The notes beneath the pieces are model-generated. The model did not search any database, was not told where the DNA came from, and was given only the letters and a program-made list of their open reading frames with translations. Below are positions 5,087 to 26,502 of a stretch of DNA of 48,477 bases, in pieces. Each line of letters begins with the position of its first letter. Within the stretch, counting starts at the first letter, position 1. The stretch spans positions 11,199,780-11,248,256 of the forward strand of contig NZ_KK037166.1 in assembly GCF_000568255.1 (NCBI RefSeq), given 5' to 3'. The position numbers and the translations under genes are program-made. The DNA is from Kutzneria sp. 744 (GTDB lineage Bacteria > Actinomycetota > Actinomycetes > Mycobacteriales > Pseudonocardiaceae).

Positions 5087-5096
5087 CGCAGTGTTG

Positions 5097-5114: not shown

Positions 5115-5150
5115 CCCACTGGGGAATGCGCACACAAGGGGAGTGGGGCC

Positions 5151-6389: not shown

Positions 6390-6399
6390 GAGACATCTC

Positions 6400-6603
6400 G
6401 TGATCCACATCGAGACCGACACCGACCTCTGCATCGCCTCGGGTGTGTGCGCACTGGCCGCGCCCGCGGTGTTCGACCAGGACGAGGACACCGGCCTGGT
6501 GGTGCTGCTGGACGCCGACCCGGCCGAGGAGCAGGCCGGCGCCGTGCGTGAGGCGGCCACCATGTGCCCCAACGCGGTCATCAGGCTGACCGAGCGCGCC
6601 TGA
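6400..6603 (+). CDS. Ferredoxin, [3Fe-4S] type, P450 redox partner
   Basis: A 67-residue ferredoxin starting at GTG 6400 behind AGGAGA, read as MIHIETDTDLCIASGVCALAA and so on. The ligand pattern C-x5-C early and MCPNAV late, with Ala where the fourth cysteine of a [4Fe-4S] site would sit, is that of P450-associated [3Fe-4S] ferredoxins. Its position immediately after the P450 makes electron transfer to that enzyme the obvious role. No reductase gene is in the window. Confidence 0.93.
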   Translation: MIHIETDTDLCIASGVCALAAPAVFDQDEDTGLVVLLDADPAEEQAGAVREAATMCPNAVIRLTERA

Positions 6604-7002
6604 GACAGGACAGGCTCCTATGTATTCTCAGCGGGGCGTATGTTGTTAGCAGGAGACCATCTGTAATCGAAAATTCAGATGTTCGCTGTAAGTGTGCGAC
6701 TAAGGAAATAAACCGTCGCACCGAAAGTGTAACTCCCAAGGGGCTTCAATGACCCACGGCCAGTGCCGCCTCGGTGGCGTGAGATGCTCCGCGCGTTTGT
6801 TCCTTCAGTCACCTTTCTATTCGGCGATTCCTCAGACGCCTACCGTGCTTAATTGCGGCTTCACGTGTGATCGCTATGATTACGATTGTAGCGAGGACTA
6901 GCGCCAAATTCATGGCTGTCCCGATCGTGCGATCACAAGGTGCCGTCGCCGACCCTGACCCATGATGCGCCCTGGTTGTCCATCGGCCGAGGTTCCGACC
7001 GA
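6604..7002. other. Intergenic region with a low-GC, TA-rich block
   Basis: From about 6612 to 6940 the sequence is close to 50% GC, rich in TA and without the strong codon pattern of its neighbours. This is very different from the surrounding DNA. It holds one short reading frame with a good ribosome site (6749-6901, listed separately). No terminator, tRNA or repeat is visible. The composition resembles the block at 26116-26502 that interrupts an NRPS domain, so gap filling during assembly should be considered. Confidence 0.5.
6749..6901 (+). CDS. Possible 50-residue Cys-rich small peptide (speculative)
   Basis: An ATG at 6749 sits 5 nt after AAGGGG and opens 50 codons ending at TAG 6899. 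The peptide begins MTHGQCRLGG and ends NCGFTCDRYDYDCSED, with five cysteines (6, 13, 36, 40, 47) and an acidic, tyrosine-rich tail. It lies 145 nt after the P450/ferredoxin pair, so a P450-modified peptide precursor could be imagined. Against this, third-position GC is only about 60%, the surrounding block looks random, and no dedicated maturation enzyme other than the P450 is next to it. I do not recognise a family. Confidence 0.22.
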   Translation: MTHGQCRLGGVRCSARLFLQSPFYSAIPQTPTVLNCGFTCDRYDYDCSED

Positions 7003-7215
7003 CTAGTGACGCGGGTCACCTCCGACGAGCTTGGTCAAACGACCGAACATGCGGGCCACCCTGGTGGTGGGCCGGGTGGGGCGGCACACGGGCTCGTACG
7101 TCCCGCAGTGCAGTCGCTCCGCGCCGGTGCTGGTGGTCGCGACCACGGTCGCGTGGCCACAGCCCGGGCACGGGGCGACGGTGCCATCCGGATCGGGAAT
7201 GCCTAATACACTCAC
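7003..7215 (-). CDS. Small zinc-ribbon-like hypothetical protein
   Basis: A 70-residue protein from GTG 7215 (MSVLGIPDPDGTVAPCPGCG). The CPGCG knuckle and two later cysteines (HCGTYEPVC) could coordinate zinc, and the C-terminal half is basic (TRPTTRVARMFGRLTKL). Codon use is typical of the genome (high third-position GC), which supports a real gene. GGAGG lies about 12 nt upstream of GTG 7215. The reading frame extends further upstream without obvious homology. Function unknown; a nucleic-acid-binding role is only a guess. Confidence 0.55.
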   Translation of the reverse strand: MSVLGIPDPDGTVAPCPGCGHATVVATTSTGAERLHCGTYEPVCRPTRPTTRVARMFGRLTKLVGGDPRH

Positions 7216-7391
7216 CAGGCGGCCTCCAGGACCAGTCTGTCCATGCCTCCAGTCTCCCATCCCGGCCGCTTCGGGTGGAGCGGACATCGCCTCCGGGCGC
7301 GTCGGACACCGCCGCCGGTTGCGCTGATCAGGCCCGATGGGCACGGCCCGAGCCCCTGCTCGGGCCGGGATTTGTGTGCTAGGCATGACGG

Positions 7392-8246
7392 ATGATCGAG
7401 GCGGGGACGGAAGTTCACGAGGCGGCGCGGGCGCGGGCGGACTCGGCGGCGGAGCAGGCCGGGGTGACGGTGCGGCTGGTGCACGAACTGCCGGAGCTGG
7501 AACAGGTTCGTGTGCTGCTCGACCTGGTGTGGCGGCCCGACCCGACGAACCCGCCGGCCACGCTGGAACTGCTGCGGGTCGTCTCGCACCTCGGCAGCTA
7601 CGTGGCGGCGGCGTATCGCGGCGACACGATGGTCGGCGCCACGATGGGGTTCTTCGGCCCGCCGGACACCCGAAGCCTGCACTCGCACATCACCGGCGTG
7701 CTGCCGGACGGCCAGGTTCGCGGCGTCGGGTTCGCGCTGAAGACGCACCAGCGCGCGTGGGCGCTGGACAATGGGCTGCGCATGATCGGCTGGACCTTCG
7801 ATCCGCTGGTGTCCCGAAACGCGCACTTCAACCTGGCCAAGCTGGGCGCGCGCTGCCATGTGTACCTGGAGTCCTTCTACGGCGACATGCCCGACGAGCT
7901 CAACGCCGGCGACGAGAGCGACCGCATCCTGCTGGAGTGGGATCTCGCGGACCCGGTCGTCACACGGGCGCTGGCCGGGCATCCGGTCGAGCGGGCGGCG
8001 GATGCGTTGGTGGCGTTGGACATTGACGGTGAGCAACGGCCGGTCCCGGGCGGGATCAAGGGCCGCTATGTGGAAGTCCGCATCCCGGCCGACATCTACG
8101 CCGTGCGCAAGGCGCGGCCCGAGGCCGCGCTGCGCTGGCGTCTGGCGGTGCGTGACGTGCTCGGCGGTCTGCTGGCCGACGGCGCCGTGATCACCGGGTT
8201 CAGCCGTGAGGGTGGATATCTGCTCGACCGCGGGGAGGACGCGTGA
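7392..8246 (+). CDS. GNAT-family N-acyltransferase, probably amino acid N-succinyltransferase
   Basis: A 284-residue protein with GNAT-like features (YVAAAYRGDTMVGATMGFFG, then VGFALKTHQRAWALDNGLR, resembling the acyl-CoA-binding region). Its stop overlaps the start of the NSAR/OSBS gene by 4 nt. Family knowledge: in several Gram-positives a GNAT succinyltransferase beside NSAR makes N-succinyl-D-amino acids, which the racemase converts to the L form for hydrolysis. This gives irreversible D-to-L conversion. The pairing here strongly suggests that role, although the third enzyme (an M20 desuccinylase) is not next door. The start is ATG 7392. Confidence 0.8.
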   Translation: MIEAGTEVHEAARARADSAAEQAGVTVRLVHELPELEQVRVLLDLVWRPDPTNPPATLELLRVVSHLGSYVAAAYRGDTMVGATMGFFGPPDTRSLHSHITGVLPDGQVRGVGFALKTHQRAWALDNGLRMIGWTFDPLVSRNAHFNLAKLGARCHVYLESFYGDMPDELNAGDESDRILLEWDLADPVVTRALAGHPVERAADALVALDIDGEQRPVPGGIKGRYVEVRIPADIYAVRKARPEAALRWRLAVRDVLGGLLADGAVITGFSREGGYLLDRGEDA

Positions 8247-9355
8247 AGATCGAGGGCCTTGAGCTGCGCTGGGCGACGCTGCCGCTGGTGGGCGCGTTCC
8301 GGACGTCGTTCGGCAGCGAGAGCACCCGGGACCTGTTGCTGCTGCGGCTGGTCACCGACCAGGGCGAGGGCTGGTCGGAGTGCGTGGCCATGGGCGCGCC
8401 GGTGTACTCGCCGGAATACGTGGACGCGGCCGCCCATGTGATCGAGCACGTGCTGTTCCCGGAGATCGCCGCGCTGTCCGATCCGGACGTTCACGCTGTT
8501 TCCCGCGCCATGCAACGGTTTCACGGCCACCAGATGGCCAAGGCCGCGCTGGAGACGGCATTTCTCGACGCCGAGCTGCGCTCCCTCGACCTGTCGCTGG
8601 CCCGCTACCTCGGCGGTGCGGCCGACCGCGTGGCCTCCGGCGTGTCGGTCGGCATCATGGACACCATCCCGCAGCTGCTCGACGCCGTGGCCGGCTATCT
8701 CGACCAGGGCTACGTGCGGATCAAGCTGAAGATCGAGCCCGGCTGGGACGTGGAGCCCGTGCGCGCGGTCCGGGAACGCTTCGGCGACGAGGTGCCGCTC
8801 CAGGTCGACGCCAACACCGCCTACACCGTCGGCGACGCGCGGCAGCTGGCCAAGCTCGACCCGTTCGACCTCCTGCTGATCGAGCAGCCGCTGCCCGAGG
8901 ACGACCTGCTCGGGCATGCCCAGCTGGCCCGGCTGGTGCGCACGCCGATCTGCCTGGACGAGTCCATCACCTCGGCCAAGGTCGCGGCCGACGCCATCAG
9001 CCTCGGCGCCTGCGCCATCGTGAACATCAAACCGGGACGGGTCGGCGGCTATCTGGAGTCCCGCCGCGTGCACGACGTCTGCCAGGCCCACGGCGTGCCG
9101 GTGTGGTGCGGCGGGATGCTGGAGACCGGGATCGGGCGGGCGGCCAACCTGGCGCTGGCCTCGCTGCCCGGGTTCACCCTGCCCGGTGACACCTCGGCGT
9201 CCGACCGCTACTACCACCGGGACGTCACCGAGCCGTTCACACTCGAGAACGGGCACGTCCGCGTGCCGACCGGGCCGGGAATCGGCGTCACCCCCGTACC
9301 CGAGATTCTGCACGACCTGACGACCGACACCCGTTGGTTGCCGGCAAACGGGTGA
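8243..9355 (+). CDS. menC: N-succinylamino acid racemase / o-succinylbenzoate synthase (enolase superfamily)
   Basis: A 370-residue muconate-lactonizing-subgroup enolase-superfamily enzyme starting at GTG 8243, inside the end of the GNAT gene. Catalytic and metal residues are visible: K161 and K163 in RIKLKIEPGW, D189 (QVDANTAY), E214 (LLIEQPL), D239 (CLDES) and K263 (VNIKPGRVGG). These numbers agree with what I recall for the promiscuous Amycolatopsis NSAR/OSBS. OSBS serves menaquinone synthesis and NSAR racemises N-succinyl amino acids; sequence alone does not separate them. The overlapping acyltransferase, and the absence of other men genes nearby, favour the racemase role. Confidence 0.93.
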   Translation: MKIEGLELRWATLPLVGAFRTSFGSESTRDLLLLRLVTDQGEGWSECVAMGAPVYSPEYVDAAAHVIEHVLFPEIAALSDPDVHAVSRAMQRFHGHQMAKAALETAFLDAELRSLDLSLARYLGGAADRVASGVSVGIMDTIPQLLDAVAGYLDQGYVRIKLKIEPGWDVEPVRAVRERFGDEVPLQVDANTAYTVGDARQLAKLDPFDLLLIEQPLPEDDLLGHAQLARLVRTPICLDESITSAKVAADAISLGACAIVNIKPGRVGGYLESRRVHDVCQAHGVPVWCGGMLETGIGRAANLALASLPGFTLPGDTSASDRYYHRDVTEPFTLENGHVRVPTGPGIGVTPVPEILHDLTTDTRWLPANG

Positions 9356-13839: not shown

Positions 13840-13885
13840 AGGGGGCTTTCCCGCACTCCGAGTGCGGGAAAGCCCCCTTCACAGC
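13833..13885. terminator. Bidirectional terminator: 26-bp perfect inverted repeat
   Basis: Two exactly complementary 26-nt arms flank a single central C (13859). The repeat contains the stop codons of both converging genes (TGA at 13837-13839 on plus, TGA at 13881-13879 on minus). In RNA it forms a very stable hairpin in both directions, which suits termination of convergent transcripts. Confidence 0.75.
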
Positions 13886-14559
13886 GTCGGCATCGCCGTG
13901 ACCGGCGCCTTGGCGTAGCCGTTGACCACCACGTCGTCCAGGCGGGTGGGCTCGCCGCTCAGGGCGAGGGCCGGGAACCGTTGGCGCAGCTTGGTGATCG
14001 CCTCGTCGACCAGGTCCTCGTGGTCGCCCAGGGTGAGGTGGCCGGTGGTGTTGCGGCCGAAGTCGAGCTCGTCGGGCCGGTCGAACATGATCGGGTCGCG
14101 GTTGGCCGAGCCGATCAGCACGGCGACCGTCTCGCCGGCCTCGATGTCGATGCCGGCCAAGGTGATCGTGTCCGTCGCGGTGCGCAGCGCCATACCGTAG
14201 GGGCCGTCGTGCCGTGACAGCTCGGCCACGTTCACCCCGACCTGGTCGGGGTGCCGGAGCAGGTCGACGACGGCGTTGACGAGGAGATGCGCGACCACAT
14301 TGTCGCCGACGATCGGCTGGGCGAAATCCCGCAGCAGGTCGAAGTCGCCGTCCAGGCCGGCCAGCACGGCGTCGACGTCACCGGGCGCCGGCTCGGTCGG
14401 CGACGACCGGAGCGCCTCGAAGGCGTCGGCGTAGCGGCTGATCAGCCACACCCGCCGCCCGTCGGGCAGCACCGCCTCGCAGATCGGCGCCTGCGACCGC
14501 AACCACCGATGCATGGTGTGCCGGTCCTGGATGTACTTGTCGTCGAGCATCACGGCCAC
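13879..14559 (-). CDS. Reduced cytochrome P450-like protein lacking the heme cysteine
   Basis: 226 residues with recognisable P450 pieces: WLISRYADAFEALRSSP (N-terminal sheet and helix), AQPIVGDNVVAHLLVNAVVD, and GIDIEAGETVAVLIGSANRDPIMF (the K'-to-meander strand). The heme loop is degenerate: where FGxGxHxCxG is expected it reads LTLGDHEDLV, with no cysteine. The I-helix oxygen-binding region is shortened. A P450 reaction is therefore impossible by known chemistry. Options are a decayed gene or a helper protein; heme-less P450 homologues such as EryCII and DesVIII act as glycosyltransferase partners, but they are full length. The frame is intact, the codon use normal, and it sits 8 nt after the preceding P450, so it is the last gene of the lipid operon. 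Confidence 0.72.
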   Translation of the reverse strand: MAVMLDDKYIQDRHTMHRWLRSQAPICEAVLPDGRRVWLISRYADAFEALRSSPTEPAPGDVDAVLAGLDGDFDLLRDFAQPIVGDNVVAHLLVNAVVDLLRHPDQVGVNVAELSRHDGPYGMALRTATDTITLAGIDIEAGETVAVLIGSANRDPIMFDRPDELDFGRNTTGHLTLGDHEDLVDEAITKLRQRFPALALSGEPTRLDDVVVNGYAKAPVTAMPTL

Positions 14560-14567
14560 GACGCATT

Positions 14568-17500
14568 CTAGGTGATCAGCAGCGCCAGCCGATCGAGGCC
14601 CCGCAGCGCGGGGTCCGGCCGGAAGACGGGCTCCTCGGCCAGCCGCAACGACGGGAACCGCGCGGCCAGCGCGGGGAACAGCACCTGGCCCTCGACCCGG
14701 GCCAGCGCCGCCCCGAGGCAGTAGTGCGCGCCGGCGCCGAACGTGAGATGCCCGGCGGCGTCGGGCCGGCGCAGGTCCAGGCGGTCCGGGTCGGGGTAGC
14801 GACCGGGATCGCGGTTGGCCGCGCCCAGCACGGGAAACACCAGCTCACCGGCGGTGATCCGCTTGCCGGCCAGCTCAAGGTCGACGGTCGCCCGCTGCGG
14901 CGTGATGATCGGCGCGGGACTGTCGTAGCGGAGCAGCTCCTCGGCCGCGGTCCGGGCGACCGACGGGTCATCGCGCAGGAGCTCGTACTGATCGGGGTTG
15001 CGGAGCAACGCCAGCACGCTGTTGCCGATGTAGTGGGCCGTGGTCTCCAGCCCGGCGTTGATCACCGAGATGACCGTGGTGGCCATCTCGGGGTCGGAGA
15101 CCATGCCGCCGATGTACTTGGTCAGCTCGTCGGCGGCGGCCATGGCCCGGTACGCGGTGCTGACCGGATCCTCGCCGAACTGGGCCTGCCCCAGCACGGC
15201 CATGACCTCGCGGCCCCACTCTGCCACCTGCGGCTGATCACAGCGCGGCACGCCCACGAGGTCCATCACCACGCGGCCGGGCAACGGATACGCCACCTCG
15301 GACATGAACTCCACCGGTCCCGGGCGGTCGATACCGTCCAGCATCTCGGCCACGGCCTTCTCCACGTCGCCACGCAGCGCCTCCACCGCCCGGCCCGTGA
15401 AGCTGCCGGCCATCAGCCGCCGCATCCGCTCGTGCCGCTCGTGGTTGCTGAACGGGAGGCTGGCGTCCAGCCACTCGATGAACGGCCTCAGCTCGGCCAG
15501 CGTCTCCTCGGGCAGCCGCGGCAGGAGCGTGGCGGTGGACGGCCGGATCACCGACGGATCCCGCAGCAGTTGGAACACTTCGGCGTGCCGGGTCAGTACC
15601 CAGCCGTCCACGCCTCGTCCCGGTACACCGGAGCCAGGTCGCGCAGCAGGTGGTAGAAGGGGTACGGGTCCTGGAGGAAGTCCGGGTCCATCGGGTTGAG
15701 GTGGATGCTGGCCTCGACCCGTGCCTGCTGCGGCGGTCGCGGCGCGGGGATGGCGGCGATGCAGGACCGGATCGCCGCGGCCAGCGCGGTGAGGTCCGGC
15801 GGTGCGAAGGCCCGTGAAGTGGTTGCCGGGCACCGTGATCACCGACAAGCTTTGCAGCGCGACGCTTTCCCAGCCGTTGGCCGGATCATCCAGGCGCAGC
15901 GCGATGTGCCGGTCGTCGAACAGCACTTGTGGGAAGCCGCCGTCGGCCTTGATCAACGTCACGGCGAGGTCGGACGGCCCTGGCTCATAGCGCACCACGG
16001 CTTCGAGCTGGGCTTGGTAGACCCGCATGATGGCGGCGATGTGCTCGTCCGCCGGTCCGCTCGCGCCGAGGAAGCGGGCCAGCTCGCGGCGCTGCTCGGC
16101 GGGGGAGAGGGACTGGTCGACCCGGCGCCTCGGCGCGTCGGCACCGCGGAAGGCGAGGCTGCGCATCCGCCACAGCTCCTCGATGATCGCCACGTCATCG
16201 GCCGGCGGCTCGGGCTGGCCGGGCTCGGCCAGGTAGGTGTCGATCAGGATCACCTGCGCGACCTCGTCGCCGTGTTTCCTGAGTACGCAAGCGACCTCGT
16301 ACGCGACGAGGCCGCCGAACGAGTGCCCGCCGATGAGGTAAGGCCCGTGCGGCTGGATCGCCTTGATCTCGTCGACGTAGCGGGCGGCCAGCGCCGGCAC
16401 CTCGTCCAGTGGCTCGTCGACGCCGTCGAAACCGGGGCTCTGCAAGGCATAGAACGTCTGCTGCGGCCCGATCGCCCGGGCCAGCGGCAGCAGGTAGTAG
16501 GCCGCGCCGACCGCGCCGCCGATGCAGAAGAACGGACGCGGCGGTGTCAATGCCAACGCCAGGCTCTCCGGGCCGGCGACCTCGTCGCCGTGCTCGTCGA
16601 GGTGCCGGCCGACAGCGTCCAAAGTGGGCAGTTCGAGCAGCAGCGAATGCGGCACCCGATAGCCGAGGTGGGACGACAGATCGGCCAGCACGGTCGCCAT
16701 CTGGAGCGACTCCAGGCCCAGCGTGGCAATCGGGGCATGTGGGTCGACCGGGCGCTTGATCTCGGCCGATACGCGCCGGGCCAACCAGTTCGTGAGGTCG
16801 TTGCCGAAGTGGCGGGCGACGAAGTCCAGGGCATAGTCGAGGTTGCACTCGACCAGTTCGAAGGCCGGCAGGCTGCCCACGTGGTAGGTCCGGTGCCGGC
16901 CCTGGATCTCCTCGATCCGGTCGTAGATCCCGTCGGCGAGGTCGGCGCACCCGAAGTGCGGCATGTACTTCCACTGGCGGTCCCAGAACACCTCGTCGGC
17001 GTCGGCCGGCCCGTAGGAGTAGCGGGCGCAGACCTCGCTGTCGGCGTATCGGTGGTGGAAAGACGTGTCGCCGTACAGCGTGAAGGCCATCCGTGGTTGG
17101 TCCGGGGCCGTGCAGAACGTCGTGCGGTAGTCCTGATATCGCACCCGGGAGGCGAGATCCTGTTCGTCCTCGCGAGCGTCCAGCACCGGCAGCAGCTGAT
17201 CCAGCGGCACGGTCAATACCAGATCGTCGAACCGCAGCGTCTCCCCGTCGACGGTCACCAGCACCCGGTTGCCGTGTCGTCGGATCGAGGAAATGCTTGC
17301 CTCGCAACGAACATCGGCCAGCTCGGCGGCGACGCGTTCCCACACCTGGCCGAACCCGCCGGCGATGGTGAACGGCCACTGACGACCCAGCACCGATGTG
17401 CCCCGGTCTGACAGCAGTCCGGTCATCTCGGCGTACTTGACCAGGTACAACGCCGGCAGATCGCCGTCGAGACGACCGTATCCGGAGGAGGTGTAGCCCA

Positions 17501-17912
17501 GTTCGAACGTCGCCGCGAACTCCGGCAGCAGGGAAAGCCACTCCCGCACCGGCATCGCCAACGCCCTGGCCGAGTGGGCCAGCCCGGCCTTCGCGATGTC
17601 CGGGAAGTGCTCCGCCTTGAGGGCGTCATACCGCCGCCGCGCGTCCTTGCTCAGGAAGGGGCTCCGTGTCACCGGAGTGATGTCCTCAATGGACAGACCG
17701 AGCTCGGTGACCAGCGCCGCCACCCGCTTGTACGTCAGCGTGCACACGTGCCCGCCGACGTCGAAGACATGTCCGTCCAACGTCACCGAAGCGCACTTGC
17801 CACCGACGTTCTCCGCCGCCTCCAACACCGTCACGGAATGGCCGAGACGTTCCAGCTCCCGGGCGACGGTCAGACCGCTGACTCCCGCCCCGACCACACA
17901 AACACGCCTCAC
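14568..17912 (-). CDS. Fatty-acid-isomerase-like flavoprotein / carrier / thioesterase / P450 multidomain frame
   Basis: The open frame is 1114 codons. Residues 1-385: FAD amine-oxidase fold (VGAGVSGLTVARELERLG, VGGKC, LVLTVPLDQLL, GRHRTYHVGS) closest, from memory, to the polyunsaturated fatty acid double-bond isomerase of Cutibacterium acnes. Residues 385-455: carrier domain with phosphopantetheine serine S402 in LGLESLQM. Residues 470-715: thioesterase with nucleophile S531 (GGHSFGGL) and histidine in PGNHF. Residues 780-1114: P450 with heme ligand C1065 (FGAGAHYCLG) and AGLETT in the I-helix. Between about 15812 and 15616 the true coding homology shifts frame (thioesterase tail, then NPMDPDFLQDPYPFYHLLRD) and shifts back, so there are two compensating indels. 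The P450 may be a separate gene starting at that ATG. GTG 17912 overlaps the FAAL stop by 4 nt. Confidence 0.8.
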   Translation of the reverse strand: MRRVCVVGAGVSGLTVARELERLGHSVTVLEAAENVGGKCASVTLDGHVFDVGGHVCTLTYKRVAALVTELGLSIEDITPVTRSPFLSKDARRRYDALKAEHFPDIAKAGLAHSARALAMPVREWLSLLPEFAATFELGYTSSGYGRLDGDLPALYLVKYAEMTGLLSDRGTSVLGRQWPFTIAGGFGQVWERVAAELADVRCEASISSIRRHGNRVLVTVDGETLRFDDLVLTVPLDQLLPVLDAREDEQDLASRVRYQDYRTTFCTAPDQPRMAFTLYGDTSFHHRYADSEVCARYSYGPADADEVFWDRQWKYMPHFGCADLADGIYDRIEEIQGRHRTYHVGSLPAFELVECNLDYALDFVARHFGNDLTNWLARRVSAEIKRPVDPHAPIATLGLESLQMATVLADLSSHLGYRVPHSLLLELPTLDAVGRHLDEHGDEVAGPESLALALTPPRPFFCIGGAVGAAYYLLPLARAIGPQQTFYALQSPGFDGVDEPLDEVPALAARYVDEIKAIQPHGPYLIGGHSFGGLVAYEVACVLRKHGDEVAQVILIDTYLAEPGQPEPPADDVAIIEELWRMRSLAFRGADAPRRRVDQSLSPAEQRRELARFLGASGPADEHIAAIMRVYQAQLEAVVRYEPGPSDLAVTLIKADGGFPQVLFDDRHIALRLDDPANGWESVALQSLSVITVPGNHFTGLRTAGPHRAGRGDPVLHRRHPRAATAAAGTGRGQHPPQPDGPGLPPGPVPLLPPAARPGSGVPGRGVDGWVLTRHAEVFQLLRDPSVIRPSTATLLPRLPEETLAELRPFIEWLDASLPFSNHERHERMRRLMAGSFTGRAVEALRGDVEKAVAEMLDGIDRPGPVEFMSEVAYPLPGRVVMDLVGVPRCDQPQVAEWGREVMAVLGQAQFGEDPVSTAYRAMAAADELTKYIGGMVSDPEMATTVISVINAGLETTAHYIGNSVLALLRNPDQYELLRDDPSVARTAAEELLRYDSPAPIITPQRATVDLELAGKRITAGELVFPVLGAANRDPGRYPDPDRLDLRRPDAAGHLTFGAGAHYCLGAALARVEGQVLFPALAARFPSLRLAEEPVFRPDPALRGLDRLALLIT

Positions 17913-19621
17913 GCGGGCACGCCCTCCCGGGACAGGAACGCCTCACGGCACGCACCGCGCCGGATCTTGCCGCTGGTTGTCTTGCGCACCAAGCCCTGCG
18001 GCCCGACCACCACCCGGGCACAGGCCAGTTGGTGATCACGCTGCACGCGCTCGGTCACGGCCTCGATGATCGCCTGCTCGTCGGCCCGGCGGTCCCGCGT
18101 CTCCACCAGCACGACCAGCCGCTCGCCTTCTTCTGCCGGCACCGAGAACGCCGCCACGCCGCCGGGCCGGATCGCCGGGTGGCAGTCCCGCACGCTCGCC
18201 TCGATGTCCTCCGGGTGCAGGTTGCGGCCGCGCACGATGATCAGGTCCTTCAGCCGCCCGGTCACAAAAAGCTCGTCCCCGTGCAGGAAACCGAGGTCCC
18301 CGGTGCGCAGGTAGTCGGTCGGGTCCTCGCCGCCGGCCACCCGGGCCCGGAACGTGGTCCTGGTCTGCTCGGGCCGGCCGTAGTAGCCCAGCGCCTTGGT
18401 CGCCGAGCTGACCCAGATCTCCCCGACCCGGCACGGCGGCAGCACCTCGCGCGTGTCCGGGTCCACGATCCGCAGCCGGGCGTCGAACTTGGTCAGCCGC
18501 CCGCAACCGACCAGCGTCGTCGCCATGCGGTCGGGCAGCGCCGGCACCGCGCGGCCGGCCTCCAGGCTGACCCGGTCCAGGCGCAGCGTGCCGCGACCAC
18601 CCATGGTGACGCTGACGGTGTGCTCGGCCAGCCCGTAGGCGGCGTAGAAGGCGTCCCGGTGCAGCCCGGACGGCTCGAAGGCGTCCAGGAACGCGGTCAC
18701 GGTCTCCGGGCGGATCGGCTCCGCCGCCGACATGAAGACCCGGACCGAGCTCAGGTCCCAGGCCGCCCGTTGTTCGACAGTCGTCTTGCGCACCGCGAGG
18801 TCGAAGGCGAAGTTGGGGGCCGCGGTGTGCGTGGCCCGCACCCGGGACATCACCTCGAACCACACGGCCGGGCGACGCAGGAAGGCCAGCGGCGAGAGCA
18901 GCCGGCTGTGCGCGTTGCCGCTCAGCGTCGACATGATCACGCTGATCAGCCCGAAGTCGTGGTACTGCGGCAGCCAGAACACGCCGCGGGCCCGCTCGCC
19001 CAGGCCGAGGTCGACGGCGTTGGCGGTGACCTCGCCGATCAGGTTGCCGTGCGTGATGACCACTCCGCGTGGCGATCCCGTTGAGCCGGACGTGTACTGC
19101 AACAGCGCCGGTTCGTCGGGATCGGACGGCGAACGCCACTCGACCGGAGCAGTGGCCGGGCGGCAGTTGTCGGTGTGCCGCCACGTGATGCGCGGCCAGC
19201 TCGGCTTCGTCCGGTCGAACACGCCGGCGACCACGCCGATGCTACGGGCCCGGTCGTATGCCTTGACCGTGAGGACCGCACGCGGCCGGCAGTCGTCCAG
19301 CACGGCGGCGAACGCCGGCAGCGTCTGCCGCAGGCGGAACGGGTCCGGCGGGTACACCGGCACCGGAACCACGCCGGCGATCAGGCATCCGACCAGGGCG
19401 ATCACGAACTCCGGGCCCGGCGGGTACACCAGCACCGCGCGGTCGCCGACCTGGAAACCCCAGCGCCGCAGGGACTCCGCGACCGCCTCGGCCCTGGTGA
19501 CGACCTCGGCCGCGGTCAACGAGGTCCGGTCGGCGCCCTCGTCGTCCACGAAGGTCAACAGCGCCTTGTCCGGGGCGAGCGCGCGCAACGACGCCAGTAC
19601 CGAGTTCTCCAAGCCAGCCAC
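17909..19621 (-). CDS. Fatty acyl-AMP ligase (FAAL)
   Basis: An adenylate-forming enzyme of 570 residues from GTG 19621; the frame stays open to 19708 but homology begins near ENSVLASLRALAPDKALLTF. Motifs: YTSGSTGSPRGVVITHGNL (P-loop), FWLPQYHDFGLI, FMSAAEPIRPETV, YGLAEHT, YLRTGDLGF and KDLIIVRGRNLHPEDIE. WLPQYHDFGLI is characteristic of FAAL/FACL members that act on long-chain acids. FAALs make acyl-adenylates and hand the acyl group to a carrier protein rather than to CoA. The carrier domain of the next gene, whose start overlaps this stop by 4 nt, is the obvious acceptor. Confidence 0.92.
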   Translation of the reverse strand: MAGLENSVLASLRALAPDKALLTFVDDEGADRTSLTAAEVVTRAEAVAESLRRWGFQVGDRAVLVYPPGPEFVIALVGCLIAGVVPVPVYPPDPFRLRQTLPAFAAVLDDCRPRAVLTVKAYDRARSIGVVAGVFDRTKPSWPRITWRHTDNCRPATAPVEWRSPSDPDEPALLQYTSGSTGSPRGVVITHGNLIGEVTANAVDLGLGERARGVFWLPQYHDFGLISVIMSTLSGNAHSRLLSPLAFLRRPAVWFEVMSRVRATHTAAPNFAFDLAVRKTTVEQRAAWDLSSVRVFMSAAEPIRPETVTAFLDAFEPSGLHRDAFYAAYGLAEHTVSVTMGGRGTLRLDRVSLEAGRAVPALPDRMATTLVGCGRLTKFDARLRIVDPDTREVLPPCRVGEIWVSSATKALGYYGRPEQTRTTFRARVAGGEDPTDYLRTGDLGFLHGDELFVTGRLKDLIIVRGRNLHPEDIEASVRDCHPAIRPGGVAAFSVPAEEGERLVVLVETRDRRADEQAIIEAVTERVQRDHQLACARVVVGPQGLVRKTTSGKIRRGACREAFLSREGVPA

Positions 19622-19804
19622 CGTCCTCGCGCACCGTCCGCGACCGCTCGCCCGCTGATCGCGCCCCCGTCTCCGCACACCGTGCGGCAGGTGTCGTCCG
19701 GCGCGCAAGCACCCCGACGGGTCGTGTCGCCGAAAGCTACATCTCTACTGTTGGTGTGCTCGACGGACGTCCACTGTGGAACAAATGGGGGTGAGGTGGC
19801 GCGA

Positions 19805-20089: not shown

Positions 20090-20177
20090 GCACACTGGCG
20101 GTCCGGTCCGTCCGGGACGACCGTTGGTCCTCAGCTGGCCGCCGCTCAAGGTTGCGTGGTGACTAAGGTTGCGAGAC

Positions 20178-21011
20178 ATGAGTCCAGCGTCGTGTCCGGA
20201 GTGCGACGGGCCGTCGGCCCGGCCGCTGCGAGTGCTGGCCGTGGACGACGAGCTGCCGGTGCTCGAGGAGATCGTCTACCTGCTCGGCGCGGACCCGCGC
20301 GTGGGCACGGCCGAGGGCGCGCAGGACTCCACCGACGCGCTGCGCCTGCTGCACCGCGCCGCTGACGCGGACCGCCCGGTCGACGCCGTTTTCCTGGACA
20401 TCAAGATGCCCGGCCTCAACGGTATGGAGCTGGCCCGGGTGCTGACCCGGTTCGCCAGCCCGCCGGCGCTGGTCTTCGTCACCGCGGACGACAAGTCGGC
20501 GGTCGAGGCGTTCGAGCTCAAGGCCCTCGACTACGTGCTCAAGCCGATCCGCCCGCAGCGGCTGGCCGAGGCCGTGCACCGGGTGGCGCACAAGGTGATC
20601 GCCAGTTCCGTGCACGTGCCGGCCCAGCAGGCGGCCGAGCCGCCGTCGGTCACTCCGGACGACGTGATACCGGTGGAGCTGGGCGGCATCACGCGGTTCC
20701 TGCGGCTGGCCGACGTCCGCTATGCCGAGGCGCAGGGCGACTACGCGCGGCTGCACACCGCGAACGGCAGCTACCTGGTCCGCACGCCGCTGACCGGGCT
20801 GGAGGAGCGCTGGCGTGAGGCCGGCTTCGTGCGCATCCACCGCAGCCACCTGATCGCCCTGGCCCACGTCGAGGAGCTGCGGCTGGACGGCGGGCAACTG
20901 TCGGTGAAGATCGGCGGCGCGATGCTGACCGTGAGCCGCCGGCACACCCCGCAGCTGCGGGACCTGCTGGTCAAGCGGGCCCGGCCGCACGCGGTGCGGG
21001 CGGGCAAGTGA
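20178..21011 (+). CDS. LytTR-family response regulator
   Basis: 277 residues. The receiver domain (about 17-135) has the acidic pair in AVDDE, phospho-acceptor D74 in VFLDIKMPG, T in VFVTADD and K in LDYVLKPIRP. A linker leads to a LytTR DNA-binding domain (about 165-270: RFLRLADVRYAEAQGDYARL, FVRIHRSHLI). ATG 20178 is preferred to TTG 20169. It is in one operon with the symporter genes and the LytS-type kinase at 23113-24288, its likely partner. Probable role: switching symporter expression in response to a carboxylate. Confidence 0.93.
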   Translation: MSPASCPECDGPSARPLRVLAVDDELPVLEEIVYLLGADPRVGTAEGAQDSTDALRLLHRAADADRPVDAVFLDIKMPGLNGMELARVLTRFASPPALVFVTADDKSAVEAFELKALDYVLKPIRPQRLAEAVHRVAHKVIASSVHVPAQQAAEPPSVTPDDVIPVELGGITRFLRLADVRYAEAQGDYARLHTANGSYLVRTPLTGLEERWREAGFVRIHRSHLIALAHVEELRLDGGQLSVKIGGAMLTVSRRHTPQLRDLLVKRARPHAVRAGK

Positions 21012-21385
21012 ACGCGGAACGGCCGCGGCGGGTCGTCGTCACGAGCCCGTGGACGCGGGCGACGCGGCGGTCGCGGTCGTATCCGATCGTGCGGGAGATC
21101 GACGAGCAGTCCGAGGTCGGCGCCCTGTACATGCGGTCGCTGATGCGGACCCAGCTGCGGCTCGGGCTGCTGGTCGTGCTGCTGGTGTGCGGGCCGCTGG
21201 CCGCGCTGCCGGTGCTGTTCAGCGTGGTTCCGCTGACGAAGACGGTGGTGGTGCTGGGTTTGCCGCTGCCGTGGCTGGTGCTCGGACTGGCGGTGTACCC
21301 GGTCGTGGTGGCGGCCGCCTGCTACTACGTGTGGCGGGTGGAGCGCACCGAACGGGATTTCGCCGATCTCGTCGAGCAGTCCTGA
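21008..21385 (+). CDS. DUF485-type small membrane protein
   Basis: 125 residues from GTG 21008 (overlapping the regulator stop). A hydrophilic N-terminus with conserved-looking EIDEQSEVGALYMRSLMRTQ is followed by two membrane helices (about 50-72 and 80-106) and a short charged tail (WRVERTERDFADLVEQ). DUF485 proteins are routinely encoded just before acetate/solute symporters and are thought to be accessory subunits. The symporter follows 3 nt later. Confidence 0.85.
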   Translation: MNAERPRRVVVTSPWTRATRRSRSYPIVREIDEQSEVGALYMRSLMRTQLRLGLLVVLLVCGPLAALPVLFSVVPLTKTVVVLGLPLPWLVLGLAVYPVVVAAACYYVWRVERTERDFADLVEQS

Positions 21386-21388
21386 CCG

Positions 21389-23116
21389 GTGAGCAGCACT
21401 TATTCCGCGGTCTTCGTGGCGCTCGTCCTCGCCGCCGCGCTGCTGATCGGCGGATACGGCCTGCGGGTCTCCCGCACCACGTCGGACTTCTTCGTGGCCT
21501 CGCGCACCGTGTCGCCATGGTGGAACGCCTCGGCCATCGGCGGGGAGTACCTGTCGGCGGCGTCGTTCCTCGGCGTCGCCGGACTGATCTTCGCGTACGG
21601 GCCGGACATGCTGTGGTACCCGATCGGTTACACCGTGGGGTATCTGGTGCTGCTGGCGTTGGTGGCGGCGCCGCTGCGGCGGTCGGGGGCGTACACCGTG
21701 CCGGACTTCGCCGAGGCCCGGCTTGAGTCGCGGCGGGTGCGGCGGATGGCCAGTGTGCTGTCGGTCGGCATCGGGTGGCTGTACCTCGTGCCGCAGCTGC
21801 AGGGCGCGGGCTTGGCGTTGACGACCGTGACCGGCGCGCCGGGGTGGCTCGGGGCGTTGCTGGTGGCGGTGGTGGTCGCGGTGAACGTGATGGCCGGGGG
21901 GATGCGGAGCATCACGTTCGTGCAGGCCGTGCAGTACTGGCTGAAGCTCTCCGCGTTGGCGATTCCGGTGATCTTTCTGGTGTTGGCGTGGCGGGATGCC
22001 GGCGCGCCGTCGTTGGACGGGTCGGTGCCGGCGGTGTTTGCCAACGACACCAAGGTGACCGTGCAGACCACTGTGGACGTTGAGGTGTCGTCCCGGGTGT
22101 CGGTGGTTGTCGACGGTGTGGTGGATGGCCGGACGTATGCCGGCACGTCGGTGTCGCTGGCGCCGGGGCCGCACCGGATCGCGGCCGGGGCCGCGCTGGA
22201 CTTCCCGGCCAAGTCCGTTGTGCCGCAGGTCAAGGGCATTCCCGCCGACACGAACGCCCTGTGGGCGCAGCCGTTGGGCGGAGAGGGGCACGGCAATCCG
22301 TTCTACGTCACGTACTCGCTGATCATCGCGACCTTCCTCGGCACCATGGGCCTGCCGCACGTCGTGGTTCGCTTCTACACCAACCCGAACGGCCGGCAGG
22401 CTCGTCGGACGACCGTGGTCGTGCTGGCCCTGCTCGGCATTTTCTACGTGCTGCCGCCGGCCTACGCGGCGTTGGGGCGGATCTACACGCCGGAACTGTT
22501 GCTCACCGGGCAGACCGACGCGGTCGTGCTGGTGCTGCCGTCGCGGCTCGTGGGTGGAACGCTGGGGGAGCTGCTCGGCGCCCTGGTGGCCGGTGGGGCG
22601 TTCGCGGCGTTCCTGTCGACGTCATCGGGATTGACGCTGTCGGTGGCCGGCGTGCTGTCGCAGGACGTGTTGCTGCTGCGGGGACTTCGCGGGTTCCGGG
22701 TGGCGGCGTTCTTCGCGGCCATCGTGCCGTTCGGGGCGGCCCTGCTGGTGTCCGGGATGTCGTTGGCCGATGTCGTGGGATTGGCCTTCGCGGTGGCCGC
22801 GTCGTCGTTCTGTCCGTTGCTGCTGCTGGGGATCTGGTGGCGGCGGCTCACACCGTTCGGGGCGGTGGCAGGCATGATCGCCGGCGGGGGACTGGCGCTG
22901 GTGGCCGGGCTGGTGACCCTGTTGGTGCCGCCCGGCGCCGGGCTGGTGTACGACCTGCTCAGCCGGCCGGCGGCGTGGAGTGTGCCGTTGGGCTTCGCGG
23001 TGATGATCGTGGGATCGTTGCTGACGCCCCGGACCGTGCCCGCGTCGGTGAACCGCACGATGGTGCGGTTGCACGCCCCGGAGGCGCTCGGTCTCGCTCA
23101 GGAGGAGACGCCGTGA
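21389..23116 (+). CDS. Sodium:solute symporter (SSS family, ActP-like)
   Basis: 575 residues from GTG 21389, with about 13 hydrophobic helices. SSS signatures include TSDFFVASRTVSPWWNASAI, GGEYLSAASFLGVAGLI and the FAAFLSTSSGLTLSVAGVLS region. Relatives import acetate, pyruvate or other short carboxylates with sodium. Residues about 210-300 form a long hydrophilic, beta-rich loop (DVEVSSRVSVVVDGVVDGRT) between helices, as in actinobacterial ActP-like members. It overlaps the kinase gene by 4 nt, which suggests the kinase senses the same solute or its flux. Confidence 0.92.
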   Translation: MSSTYSAVFVALVLAAALLIGGYGLRVSRTTSDFFVASRTVSPWWNASAIGGEYLSAASFLGVAGLIFAYGPDMLWYPIGYTVGYLVLLALVAAPLRRSGAYTVPDFAEARLESRRVRRMASVLSVGIGWLYLVPQLQGAGLALTTVTGAPGWLGALLVAVVVAVNVMAGGMRSITFVQAVQYWLKLSALAIPVIFLVLAWRDAGAPSLDGSVPAVFANDTKVTVQTTVDVEVSSRVSVVVDGVVDGRTYAGTSVSLAPGPHRIAAGAALDFPAKSVVPQVKGIPADTNALWAQPLGGEGHGNPFYVTYSLIIATFLGTMGLPHVVVRFYTNPNGRQARRTTVVVLALLGIFYVLPPAYAALGRIYTPELLLTGQTDAVVLVLPSRLVGGTLGELLGALVAGGAFAAFLSTSSGLTLSVAGVLSQDVLLLRGLRGFRVAAFFAAIVPFGAALLVSGMSLADVVGLAFAVAASSFCPLLLLGIWWRRLTPFGAVAGMIAGGGLALVAGLVTLLVPPGAGLVYDLLSRPAAWSVPLGFAVMIVGSLLTPRTVPASVNRTMVRLHAPEALGLAQEETP

Positions 23117-24288
23117 CGACCGCTGTGCTGGCGGGGCTGCTGTGCGTGATGACCCTGGCCGTGCTGGTTCTGTTGTGGCGCCTGCGCAATGCCCTGCGGG
23201 AGTCCGGCAACGCCGTCGACCGGGCCACGTACGAGACCCTGCACACCGCTTGGTCGGCCGCGCCGCCGCTGCGGGCCGGTCTCGTGCCCGAGGCCGCTCG
23301 TCGTTCCGCGCCGCATCTGCGGGCCCTGTTGGACACTCCGGCGTTGGCGTTGACCGACGGCGAGCGGGTGTTGGCGTGGGACGGCATAGCTGAGCAACAC
23401 TCGGCCGACGTGCTGGAGATCATCTCCCCGGCCCTGACGCACGGCCGTTCGCACGTGGCCCGCGTGTCGTGCTCGGATGCCGAGTGCCCGCTTCGGTTCG
23501 CTGTCATGGTTCCGTTGCATGTGGACGGTCGTATCGGCGGTGTGCTGCTGGCCTACGCCGAGGAGGCGTCGGCCGGACTGGTCCGTGCCGCCAACGAGGT
23601 CGCCCGGTGGGCCGGCGGGCAGCTGGAGCTGGCCGAGCTCGACCGGTCCAAGCAGCGGCTCATCGAGGCCGAGGTGCGGGCCCTGCGGGCGCAGATCTCC
23701 CCGCACTTCATCTTCAACTCGCTGACGGCCATCGCCTCCTACGTCCGGACCAACCCCGAGCGGGCCCGCACCCTGCTGCTCGACTTCGCGGAGTTCACCC
23801 GCTACTCGTTCCGGCGGCACGGCGAGTACACGACCCTGGCCGAGGAGCTCCGTTCCATCGACCAGTACCTGTCGTTGGAACGTGCTCGCTTCGGCGAACG
23901 CCTCCAGGTCACTCTGCGGATCGCGCCCGAGGTCCTGCCCGTCGCCGTGCCGTTCCTGTGCATGCAGCCGCTGGTGGAGAACGCAGTGCGGCACGGCATG
24001 GAGGGCAAGGTCGGCCCCGGCCACATCAGCATCCAGGCCGCCGACGCCGGGGCCGAGGCCCACATCAGCATCGAGGACGACGGCGTCGGCATGGATCCCG
24101 AGCGCCTGCGGCGCACCCTGGCCGGCGAGCCCGACGAGCAGACCGGCATCGCCCTGGGCAACATCGACGAGCGCCTCCGCCAGGTCTACGGCGACGAGTA
24201 CGGCCTGGTCGTGGAGACCGCCGTCGGCGCCGGCACCAAGATCCACCTCCGCGTCCCCAAATACCGCCCCGGCATCCACGCCGACTAA
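23113..24288 (+). CDS. LytS-type sensor histidine kinase
   Basis: 391 residues. It has one N-terminal membrane helix (5-23), then a GAF-like sensor segment (about 55-170: LALTDGERVLAWDGI, PLHVDGRIGGVLLAYAEE), the His_kinase domain with H198 in RAQISPHFIFNSL, and an ATPase domain (PLVENAVRHG, EDDGVGMD, GIALGNIDERL). With a single helix and a cytoplasmic sensor it may read an internal metabolite or interact with the symporter. Its cognate regulator is the LytTR protein at the head of the operon. Confidence 0.93.
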   Translation: MTTAVLAGLLCVMTLAVLVLLWRLRNALRESGNAVDRATYETLHTAWSAAPPLRAGLVPEAARRSAPHLRALLDTPALALTDGERVLAWDGIAEQHSADVLEIISPALTHGRSHVARVSCSDAECPLRFAVMVPLHVDGRIGGVLLAYAEEASAGLVRAANEVARWAGGQLELAELDRSKQRLIEAEVRALRAQISPHFIFNSLTAIASYVRTNPERARTLLLDFAEFTRYSFRRHGEYTTLAEELRSIDQYLSLERARFGERLQVTLRIAPEVLPVAVPFLCMQPLVENAVRHGMEGKVGPGHISIQAADAGAEAHISIEDDGVGMDPERLRRTLAGEPDEQTGIALGNIDERLRQVYGDEYGLVVETAVGAGTKIHLRVPKYRPGIHAD

Positions 24289-25587: not shown

Positions 25588-26310
25588 ATGTCGGTCCCAC
25601 CGGAGTGGAACGCCACTGACCGGCCTTTGCCCGCCCGCACCCTGGCCCAGCTGGTCGAGGCGCAGGTCGCGCGCACTCCCGGCGCGCCCGCGCTGCTGGG
25701 AGCGGACGGCACGGTCAGCTACGCCGAGCTCGACGCCCGGGCCAACCGGCTGGCGCGCCTGCTCGCGGCGCACGGCGCGGCGCCGGAGCGAATCGTCGCG
25801 CTGGCCCTGCCCCGCTCGGCCGACCTGGTCGCGGCGCAGCTGGCGGTGGCCAAGACCGGGGCGGCCTTCCTGCCGGTGGACCCGGACTACCCGAAAGAGC
25901 GAATTTCGCTCATGTTCGACGACGCGGATCCGGTGCTCGTTGTCACCCGGCGCGCACTGGCCGACCGCCTGCCGGCCGCTGTGCCGACGATCAGCATGGA
26001 CACGCCCGACCTGCTGGACGACCATGACGACCGGCCACTCGACCGTCCACAGTGCACCGACCACGCGGCGTACGTGATTTTCACGTCCGGGTCCACCGGG
26101 CGGCCCAAGGGTGTAGGAAGTACGTCAGGTGGGGGCACGGGACCATCTATCCATCCGATAAATCCAGCGGAATCTAGCGTGCTTCACCAGAGGGGTGTAC
26201 GGAGTCGGGATTTGCTAGCCACTGAGGAACAATGTAGCGTACCACGCGGTCCAATTCAAAGCAGTGCTACCATTGGTCCAGAGCGGGCGGTTCCCACTCT
26301 CCCATACTGA
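25588..26310 (+). CDS. NRPS, start of module 1 adenylation domain (interrupted)
   Basis: ATG 25588 follows GAAAGGTG. The first 176 codons are the N-terminal part of an adenylation domain: TLAQLVEAQVARTPGAPALL, LSYAEL-type core ([17 protein letters not shown]), VAKTGAAFLPVDPDYP and the P-loop [12 protein letters not shown]. Immediately after that (26116) the sequence turns into low-GC DNA unrelated to the family and the frame stops at 26310. The rest of the domain resumes near 26503. No condensation domain precedes it, so this is a loading module whose amino acid keeps a free amine. About 65 residues of the domain (A3 to A5 region) are missing. Confidence 0.8.
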   Translation: MSVPPEWNATDRPLPARTLAQLVEAQVARTPGAPALLGADGTVSYAELDARANRLARLLAAHGAAPERIVALALPRSADLVAAQLAVAKTGAAFLPVDPDYPKERISLMFDDADPVLVVTRRALADRLPAAVPTISMDTPDLLDDHDDRPLDRPQCTDHAAYVIFTSGSTGRPKGVGSTSGGGTGPSIHPINPAESSVLHQRGVRSRDLLATEEQCSVPRGPIQSSATIGPERAVPTLPY

Positions 26311-26502
26311 CCCTGCTTCGCCCATCGCCTCCGCGTCACCTCGTTGTAGTAACAGCTGTACAGGTGGTATGTCATGTATCCACTATCGATCGATTTCGCC
26401 CCTGATGCGTTCTCCCGGACGCGAGAGTCTCGCTTGATCCTCTCGTAATGGGTCCGTGCGCCGGTAAGTTCGGTACTCCATAAAGGAAATAGGCGAAAAA
26501 AC
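26116..26502. other. Foreign low-GC block interrupting adenylation domain A1
   Basis: About 387 nt of roughly 50% GC with many TA steps and no codon structure replace about 195 nt of expected adenylation-domain DNA. The block has no inverted-repeat ends, no transposase, no clear target duplication and no tRNA. It is either gap-filling/misassembly or a genuine replacement. The paralogous domain A5 (41.8-42.2 kb) shows what should be here. Confidence 0.75.

Follow-up and report, generated by a model that had tools for sequence, protein, structure and literature searches.

Organization of the operon

A small minus-strand operon of Kutzneria sp. 744, a soil bacterium, probably encodes a compact fatty-acid tailoring line that is, by descent, one half of a polyunsaturated fatty acid (PUFA) synthase-linked cluster of the Pseudonocardiaceae. 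The operon lies in the window (the whole stretch of DNA that was analyzed, 48,477 nucleotides) and encodes a fatty acyl-AMP ligase (FAAL), then a protein in which FAD, carrier, thioesterase, and cytochrome P450 domains are fused, then a heme-less P450 homologue of 226 residues (Table 1). The stop codon of the FAAL gene (17909-17911) runs into the GTG start of the fusion frame at 17912, confirming the minus-strand operon with a 4-nt overlap that had been described in a first-pass annotation. Pfam recognizes Amino_oxidase/NAD_binding_8, PP-binding, Thioesterase, and p450, in this order, in the fusion frame. The four domains and their order thus stand as first annotated; the single frame does not, since the window copy is out of register at the thioesterase/P450 joint, which leaves ~67 of the 1,114 residues out of register as sequenced. 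Over that stretch, the neighboring frame reads as the expected thioesterase end and P450 start.

Table 1. Features of the operon and its flank (window positions; PAI, polyunsaturated fatty acid isomerase)
Feature	Position	Strand	Remarks
Heme-less P450 homologue, 226 aa, 8 nt past the fusion	13879..14559	-	p450 E 4.4e-4; TIGR04515
Fusion frame, FAD - carrier - thioesterase - P450	14568..17912	-	1114 aa as sequenced; Pfam
Cytochrome P450 domain	14571..15611	-	Pfam p450 1.2e-20
Out-of-register stretch, thioesterase/P450 joint, two compensating frame changes	about 15611..15813	-	window copy
Thioesterase, residues 460-702, nucleophile S531 (GHSFGG), His in GNHF at 696	15807..16535	-	Pfam Thioesterase 4.4e-26
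Acyl carrier domain, residues 376-438, phosphopantetheine site S402	16599..16787	-	Pfam PP-binding 3.5e-8
FAD domain, PAI-like, residues 1-370	16803..17912	-	GAGVSG at 8, GGKC at 37
FAAL	17909..19708	-	Pfam AMP-binding E 2.9e-64
LytTR response regulator, small membrane protein, sodium:solute symporter, sensor kinase	20169..24288	+	divergent, outside operon

Domains and motifs

The ligase was confirmed as an acyl-AMP ligase by its Pfam AMP-binding match and by its matches in the PDB. The best of these is 7r7e (E = 1.5e-105), 3kxw matches at E = 4.8e-94, and 11 PDB sequences in all match at E ≤ 1e-60. These 11 are labeled FadD23, FadD32, acyl-CoA synthase, polyketide synthase, or saframycin Mx1 synthetase B, and we take those with the last three labels to be FAAL structures. 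The best NCBIfam models are fatty-acid--AMP ligases, matched below their cutoffs (PRK05850, 392 bits against a cutoff of 775). By its NCBIfam and PDB matches, the enzyme is nearer to FAALs than to CoA ligases. Because homology to solved FAALs starts at about residue 37 to 44, its true start is probably within the first 45 codons. The carrier that this FAAL would load is encoded in the next, overlapping gene.

The FAD domain had been likened at first pass to the isomerase of Cutibacterium acnes, and three kinds of search bore this out. The top PDB match by phmmer is PAI of Cutibacterium (Propionibacterium) acnes (2b9w; E = 1.1e-27; runner-up, 4.1e-12). PAI is also the top match of a 27-sequence flavin profile, over its full length (E = 1.7e-55; runner-up, 7.4e-23), and of an AlphaFold2 model of the domain in Foldseek (TM 0.84, E = 6.5e-27; next, TM 0.71, E = 1.1e-19). 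PAI is the nearest solved structure found for the flavin domain by sequence, profile, and predicted fold. Because it is best by all three measures, the domain does not fall firmly into the monoamine oxidase or protoporphyrinogen oxidase families, the outcome named beforehand as contrary to the likeness, and we rejected either identity.

The flavin domain shares with PAI the fold, a full-length sequence relation, and the GxGxxG and GGKC stretches. PAI is a lone protein that works on free fatty acids; unlike PAI, the Kutzneria domain shares a polypeptide with a carrier, and it differs at the columns of R88, F168, and F193, presumably active-site residues of PAI. In the flavin alignment, none of the 27 rows has phenylalanine at the F168 column (A or S) or the F193 column (D, S, P, R, G, N, or a gap). 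The R88 column holds M, S, P, Q, or R, with arginine in 1 of 27 rows and one column earlier in 4 of 27. Since these columns are not kept, the residues do not support isomerization; the resemblance to PAI behind the earlier reading of isomerization or desaturation stands, while the isomerization itself gains nothing from them.

In the translation, S402 (LGLESL), S531 (GHSFGG), and C1065 (FGAGAHYCLG) are all as first annotated. A check of motif columns took in 23 loci besides the window. The phosphopantetheine serine is present in 23 of 24 rows, with locus L096 being without the carrier domain, and the type I thioesterase motif G[HY]S[FA]GG and its histidine are present in all 23 other loci as well as in the window. 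The fused P450 has every motif looked for, namely, the I-helix AGLETT (953), ExxR (EELLR, 991), and the heme motif with C1065.

The third protein is P450-like and heme-less, as had been annotated. Its Pfam p450 match reaches 19.6 bits against a cutoff of 22.8, and its best NCBIfam match is TIGR04515 (78 bits, E = 7.5e-22), below that model's cutoff of 343. It has an ExxR-like stretch; its sole cysteine, Cys27, lies outside the heme region, and the heme cysteine is absent. TIGR04515 describes P450-derived glycosyltransferase activators, which are heme-less P450 homologues. The small protein departs from these in score, in length (226 residues against a 386-position model), and in belonging to an operon without a glycosyltransferase. 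An orthologue of about 227 to 230 residues, 75 to 85% identical, occurs in all four operon-bearing congeners; the frame in L022 has an earlier possible start. Fold prediction from a five-row alignment gave a pLDDT of 41. That the small protein arose from the fused P450 by recent duplication is unsupported, since four other P450 places in the genome match it better (best E = 3.5e-16; fused P450, 3.0e-12).

Relatives and linkage to PUFA synthase-type genes

The flavin profile was found in 26 of 390 Pseudonocardiaceae genomes, at 29 places, and in an even sample of the phylum it was found in 1 of 396 genomes, which is the window genome (G000) itself. A separate search gave 19 flavin-family loci in Streptomyces. 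We fetched 20 further regions of the same family and, because a simple gene caller missed real genes, such as the L085 fusion, took the architecture counts from tblastn, except for the L089 remnant. FAAL is present in 19 of the 20 regions. Ten carry PUFA synthase-type genes (PfaD with PfaA in seven, the PfaC type in three), three carry a shortened polyketide synthase (PKS) remnant, and seven carry neither. Such PKS remnants occur in Lentzea, and in Crossiella the flavin gene alone is left. Very long open reading frames in L097 and L099, with no Pfam match, were taken as wrong-frame artifacts.

An allene oxide synthase (AOS)-like domain of catalase fold precedes the flavin domain in 11 of the 20 regions. 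The one relative's domain tested matches the coral catalase-type AOS (1u5u, 3dy5) at E = 3.4e-27, and all 11 domains have His, Asn, and Tyr at the columns that we take to be catalytic in AOS. In contrast to the coral enzyme, the relatives' domain is bacterial and joined to a flavin-carrier-thioesterase unit; the window operon lacks it. Three relatives outside the Kutzneria-Lentzea branch have both the P450 and the AOS-like domain. From the whole of that branch the AOS-like domain is absent, and it was therefore lost early or never present there.

No PfaA, PfaC, or PfaD was found by tblastn within window positions 8001-30000. PfaD is absent from four of the five operon-bearing Kutzneria genomes, G000 included. 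In Kutzneria G006, PfaD lies away from the operon (11.49 Mb versus 3.28 Mb). The linked PfaD and PfaA copies (seven rows each) form clades with support of 100/100 and 99/99, respectively, that exclude the unlinked Kutzneria copies; their branching agrees with the flavin tree. That tree omits L028, L029, L032, and L035 (judged by length to be the same contigs as L083, L085, L086, and L089), lets L026 and L027 stand for L023 and L024, and also leaves out L100, which is too short, and L047, L048, L050, L051, and L052. Most likely, the Kutzneria operon descends in stripped-down form from a PUFA synthase-linked cluster, with acids loaded via the FAAL. Loss of the Pfa genes in Kutzneria, rather than gain elsewhere, is the direction that we infer from the flavin tree, which is midpoint rooted and joins Kutzneria, Crossiella, and Lentzea weakly (85/61). 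The seven relatives' regions that are likewise without Pfa genes count against such a loss. The first-pass picture of a self-contained line with no ketosynthase fits the window neighborhood, but half of the relatives' regions carry PUFA synthase-type genes, so a larger lipid cluster, with the operon as its tailoring half, is the better reading.

Conservation and frame integrity

The operon is kept in five of seven Kutzneria genomes and so is not a chance arrangement. The four-domain fusion also occurs in all four operon-bearing congeners and in Lentzea. Across the five genomes, the operon is under purifying selection, with a mean dN/dS per part of 0.14 to 0.38 (FAAL, 0.22; flavin domain, 0.24; carrier, 0.28; thioesterase, 0.14; fused P450, 0.28; heme-less protein, 0.38). 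In the divergent neighbor set, Pfam recognizes LytTR, Response_reg, and SSF; the small membrane protein is presumably DUF485-type, and the sensor kinase was named from reading its sequence. This set adjoins the operon in all five Kutzneria genomes and in Lentzea L029 and L032, and it adjoins the lone FAD gene in Crossiella; in Lentzea L035, only the regulator is within reach.

The thioesterase/P450 joint is open in all four operon-bearing congeners, where the fusion is one frame of about 1,110 to 1,120 residues, and a programmed frameshift there was therefore rejected for Kutzneria. A split near the P450 start is also seen in the frame of Lentzea indica (L035/L089, one draft contig). Frame breaks relative to a congener also occur in the nonribosomal peptide synthetase (NRPS) of this window, and genome completeness is put at 95.19%; the window frame breaks fit sequencing error as well as decay. 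It is unlikely that the operon is a decaying relic of a lost PUFA-type cluster, productless in this strain, with the frame changes, the truncation of the heme-less P450, and the missing synthase as stages of decay. Such a relic would account for the two frame changes, the missing heme cysteine, the PKS remnants in Lentzea, and the solitary flavin gene in Crossiella, but it sits poorly with the dN/dS of every part, with open congener frames, with a heme-less protein that keeps its length and identity, and with frame breaks that sequencing error explains equally well.

Substrate and neighboring pathways

Streptomyces homologues of the flavin domain, about half identical, lie among PhyH-type oxygenase, SDR, and IolG-like genes with no lipid genes there, and the flavin family may therefore act on substrates other than lipids. 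We nevertheless consider it quite unlikely that the Kutzneria domain oxidizes or dehydrogenates a non-lipid substrate bound to the carrier (an amine, amide, or sugar-like acid) and that the ligase activates that acid. Beyond these sugar- or inositol-like oxidoreductase neighborhoods, the domain belongs to the amine oxidase superfamily in Pfam, and LkcE, of the same fold, ranks sixth in Foldseek; but PAI outranks every amine oxidase by a wide margin, the ligase is of the FAAL type, and many relatives are linked to PUFA synthase-type and AOS-like genes. LkcE is described as an amide oxidase in the accessible part of PMC6162330.

Very unlikely is a lipopeptide pathway in which the operon supplies the neighboring NRPS (25588-48477 and beyond) with an acyl starter or tail: the NRPS lies ~14 kb from the flavin gene (between matched stretches) in all four operon-bearing congeners, at 80 to 86% identity, and FAALs are described as key in polyketide and nonribosomal peptide assembly (PMC11837247, accessible part), but the first NRPS domain is adenylation rather than acyl-accepting condensation, a thioesterase is already part of the fusion, genes for a regulator, a symporter, and a kinase stand in between, and NRPS relatives (51 to 58% identical), which may not be orthologues, occur in G004 without the operon (58%), in G238 at 5.8 Mb from the flavin gene, and in G240 and G285 on other contigs.

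Discussion

For the fatty-acid tailoring line that we favor, we infer carrier-bound acyl editing, and with it the substrate, the order of steps, the flavin reaction, and the role of the heme-less protein. The FAAL would activate a fatty acid, probably an unsaturated one, by forming the acyl-AMP and would pass the acyl group to the carrier domain of the fusion. On the carrier-bound chain, the PAI-like flavin domain may move or introduce a double bond by hydride chemistry, the fused P450 would oxygenate the chain, and the thioesterase would free the finished product. The heme-less P450 homologue probably serves as a partner without catalytic activity. With Pfa-type genes no longer adjacent in Kutzneria, the FAAL would bring acids from elsewhere.

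A broader and rather doubtful possibility is that the wider family does in bacteria, by way of an assembly line, what oxylipin pathways do in animals and plants. A Pfa-type synthase would make a polyunsaturated acid, which the FAAL would reload on the carrier; the catalase-type AOS, the PAI-type flavin domain, and, in some members, the P450 would modify the bound chain; and the thioesterase would release an oxidized, perhaps cyclopentenone-like, lipid. The Kutzneria-Lentzea branch would then run with the P450 and without the AOS.

No pathway of matching architecture was found in the open-license papers searched, which leaves the first-pass statement that none had been described uncontradicted. 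Polyyne and alkyne clusters (jamABC; caryoynencin and protegencin) likewise have a FAAL, a carrier, and a thioesterase, and they load a fatty acid on the carrier, edit it, and release it, according to the accessible part of PMC8406139. The same part gives such clusters three fatty acid desaturases and, in most cases, a rubredoxin, and it describes 10 actinobacterial genomes in which the thioesterase and rubredoxin genes are replaced by a P450 gene. The Kutzneria operon differs; no desaturase domain was found by Pfam (E ≤ 0.01) in its three proteins. The Pfa-type secondary lipid synthase clusters of PMC3098273 include, in its accessible part, several from actinobacteria without a known product, and the terms "amine oxidase" and "catalase" are absent from its main text. 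Relatives of the operon adjoin PfaA/PfaC/PfaD-type genes of this kind, but the window operon does not.

Taken with its relatives, many of which adjoin PUFA synthase-type genes, the operon points to a family of bacterial lipid pathways not described before. If this is correct, a flavin route would join the known means of editing carrier-bound fatty acids, such as the desaturases of polyyne clusters, and PUFA synthase-type genes, FAALs, and AOS-like heme proteins would be linked in actinobacteria. The carrier-fused, isomerase-like domain would also be a testable system for PAI-type hydride chemistry on thioester-bound chains.

Organization and conservation of the operon

The first-pass annotation described a fatty acid editing operon in which a fatty acyl-AMP ligase (FAAL) gene precedes a frame fusing an isomerase-like FAD domain to a carrier, a thioesterase (TE) and a P450. 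This operon is real and conserved, although the fusion frame as described is out of register over a short stretch in the window copy (see the table). The motifs GNHF, AGLETT, ExxR and FGAGAHYCLG are present in the frame, rereading bore out the residues S402, S531 and C1065, and the ligase is of the FAAL type.

Positions of the operon genes and of other features discussed in the text
Feature	Sequence	Positions	Strand	Remarks
FAAL	Window	17909-19708	minus	4-nt overlap with fusion frame
Fusion frame, 1114 aa (FAD, carrier, TE and P450 domains)	Window	14568-17912	minus	
P450 homologue (heme-less), 226 aa	Window	13879-14559	minus	8 nt beyond fusion frame
FAAL 5' piece	Window	~19637-19708		First 24 codons of longest FAAL frame, upstream of likely start
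Out-of-register stretch of fusion frame	Window	~15611-15813		Neighboring frame reads like the TE end and P450 start known from relatives
Another P450 gene	Window	5091-6389		Normal P450 match
Extra NRPS bases (~190) versus congener G002	Window	26110-26493		Inside first adenylation domain
NRPS frame change versus congener G002	Window	near 31840		
Fusion, likewise split in two frames	L035 (Lentzea indica, draft genome)	4727-8349		Split near P450 start
Unlinked KS-AT	L102	9795-16508		
KS match	Source genome	G000:C1:6372334		

Among seven Kutzneria genomes (the 11.6-Mb source genome and six congeners, Kutzneria sp. CA-103260 and K. buriramensis among them), the operon was found in five and not in G003 or G004. 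The heme-less protein is kept in all five, at 75-85% identity to the window copy. Mean pairwise dN/dS values, from simple pairwise counts, were 0.22 for the FAAL, 0.24 for the FAD domain, 0.28 for both the carrier and the P450, 0.14 for the TE and 0.38 for the heme-less protein, compared with 0.10 for a neighboring LytTR gene; every part of the operon is under constraint. The FAAL 5' piece matches at 96-100% in two of four congeners and at 82% in a third, separately from the remaining match, which suggests conserved control DNA.

The flavin domain and its relatives

By single-sequence search, the leading match of the flavin domain was the polyunsaturated fatty acid isomerase (PAI) of Cutibacterium acnes, which also led a profile search over its full length (1.7e-55 versus 7.4e-23 for the next match) and a fold comparison using a predicted model of mean pLDDT 84 (TM 0.84 versus 0.71). 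The domain is thus nearest to an isomerase by sequence, profile and fold, but it differs at the columns of PAI R88, F168 and F193, which we take to be substrate-fixing and covering residues. In an alignment of 27 rows, the R88 column holds M, S, P, Q or R (R in one row), the F168 column A or S, and the F193 column D, S, P, R, G, N or a gap; four rows have R one column ahead of R88. These differences count against simple transfer of PAI function. A missing carboxylate-binding arginine would be as consistent with a thioester-bound substrate as with a PAI function that has been lost.

A pattern scan of one genome per species (84,980 species) yielded 27 loci, distributed among Kutzneria (2), Lentzea (4), Crossiella (2) and Streptomyces (19). 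Lentzea shares the four-domain fusion, with an FAAL at three of the four loci. At the two Crossiella loci, and at L025, a member of their group in the flavin tree, the flavin gene is alone and adjoins the same LytTR, small membrane protein, symporter and kinase genes as the Kutzneria operon, as if the remaining operon parts had been lost. Crossiella and its group (L025, L046, L049 and L106) have the flavin gene without other operon parts, next to LytTR and symporter genes.

At the 19 Streptomyces loci there was no match to the FAAL, carrier or TE, and no P450 match above 45 bits. The standalone flavin relatives there belong to a group of LacI, PhyH-type oxygenase, SDR, IolG-like and flavin genes (L030, L031, L033, L034, L036-L045, L047, L048 and L050-L052). 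The PhyH-type gene is present at 19, the SDR at 16 and the IolG-like dehydrogenase at 18 of the 19, by labels that derive from family searches of L030 only. Because this neighborhood leaves room for it, the flavin domain may still take a non-lipid substrate.

Linkage to PUFA-synthase-type genes

The flavin profile (E<=1e-50) matched 26 of 390 family genomes at 29 places. Twenty were surveyed in fetched regions of 8-17 kb, a span outside which genes would escape the counts; the other nine are the five Kutzneria operons, L025 and three places in genomes G238-G240, of which G238 was examined separately. An FAAL was found in 19 of the 20 regions, an allene oxide synthase (AOS)-like domain in 11, PfaD and PfaA types in 7, the PfaC type in 3, and short ACP-KR-DH remnants of PfaA in 3 (L086 and L100 by tblastn, L089 by gene cluster); in 7 regions we found neither a Pfa-type gene nor a remnant. 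PfaD of L093 scored 630 bits against TIGR02814 (cut-off, 449), PfaA of L092 and L093 scored 1204 and, just below the cut-off of 1010, 1006 bits against TIGR02813, and L087 has FabA-like domains; other assignments rest on similarity to these proteins.

PfaD (E<=1e-60) occurs in 12/26 flavin genomes versus 85/364 others; in 9 of the 26 it lies no more than 20 kb from the flavin gene. Linked PfaD and PfaA (7 rows each) form clades (100/100 and 99/99) apart from the unlinked Kutzneria copies, a small set of 2 and 3 rows, respectively. A five-row group (L091, L092 / L093, L094, L095) branches the same way in the Pfa and flavin trees.

Eleven relatives (L084, L087, L088, L091-L095 and L097-L099) have a catalase-fold stretch ahead of the flavin-carrier-TE unit similar to that of L099, whose match to 1u5u, the allene oxide synthase of coral (E, 3.4e-27), ranks above those to catalases (best, 9.1e-7). 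His, Asn and Tyr at what we take to be the catalytic columns are kept in all 11, and 8 have Pfa-type genes in the fetched region. The domain was not found in the window operon or in the Lentzea copies grouping with it in the flavin tree, and may have been lost from the Kutzneria line or never present; one Lentzea genome holds a third copy, L084, which has the domain and groups elsewhere.

Neither the window nor the fetched congener regions showed a Pfa-type gene close to the operon, and PfaD was not found in four of five operon-bearing Kutzneria genomes; therefore, the FAAL acids would come from elsewhere, presumably primary metabolism, uptake or an unlinked KS-AT/KS gene pair. This pair, whose KS-AT is 42-45% identical to linked PfaA, occurs in all seven Kutzneria genomes and, because these include the two species without the operon, is no dedicated partner.

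Integrity of the operon and the nearby NRPS

Decay of the operon is possible for the source strain and not likely for the genus: in all four operon-bearing congeners the fusion protein is one open frame of ~1110-1120 aa, so intact copies exist. The window NRPS also differs from that of congener G002, and its longest frame is 3725 aa, against 5761-5782 aa in congeners; sequencing error at the TE/P450 joint is therefore likely. A lipopeptide role, in which the operon would serve this NRPS ~14 kb from the flavin gene and kept in 4/4 congeners, is weakened because the NRPS starts with an adenylation domain, G004 has an NRPS relative without the operon, and the best relative in G238, G240 and G285 lies 5.8 Mb off or on another contig.

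Proposed function

We infer a step order and chemistry in which the FAAL would load an acid onto carrier S402, the flavin domain would use hydride transfer to alter the chain held there, the P450 would oxygenate it, and the S531 thioesterase would release the product. As described in PMC8406139, polyyne clusters likewise combine an FAAL, a carrier and a thioesterase but use fatty acid desaturases; those of 10 actinobacterial genomes have a P450 gene instead of thioesterase and rubredoxin. The available text of an FAAL review (PMC11837247) lacks the terms flavin, FAD-dependent, P450 and isomerase, and that of a Pfa survey (PMC3098273), which places Actinosynnema mirum among carriers of an uncharacterized type, lacks amine oxidase and catalase. 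We found no paper on this combination of parts in the open-licence literature; a subscription paper could exist. The operon is best filed as carrier-bound fatty acid tailoring, in a new form, and its probable ancestor is a member of a PUFA-synthase-linked family of clusters not yet described.
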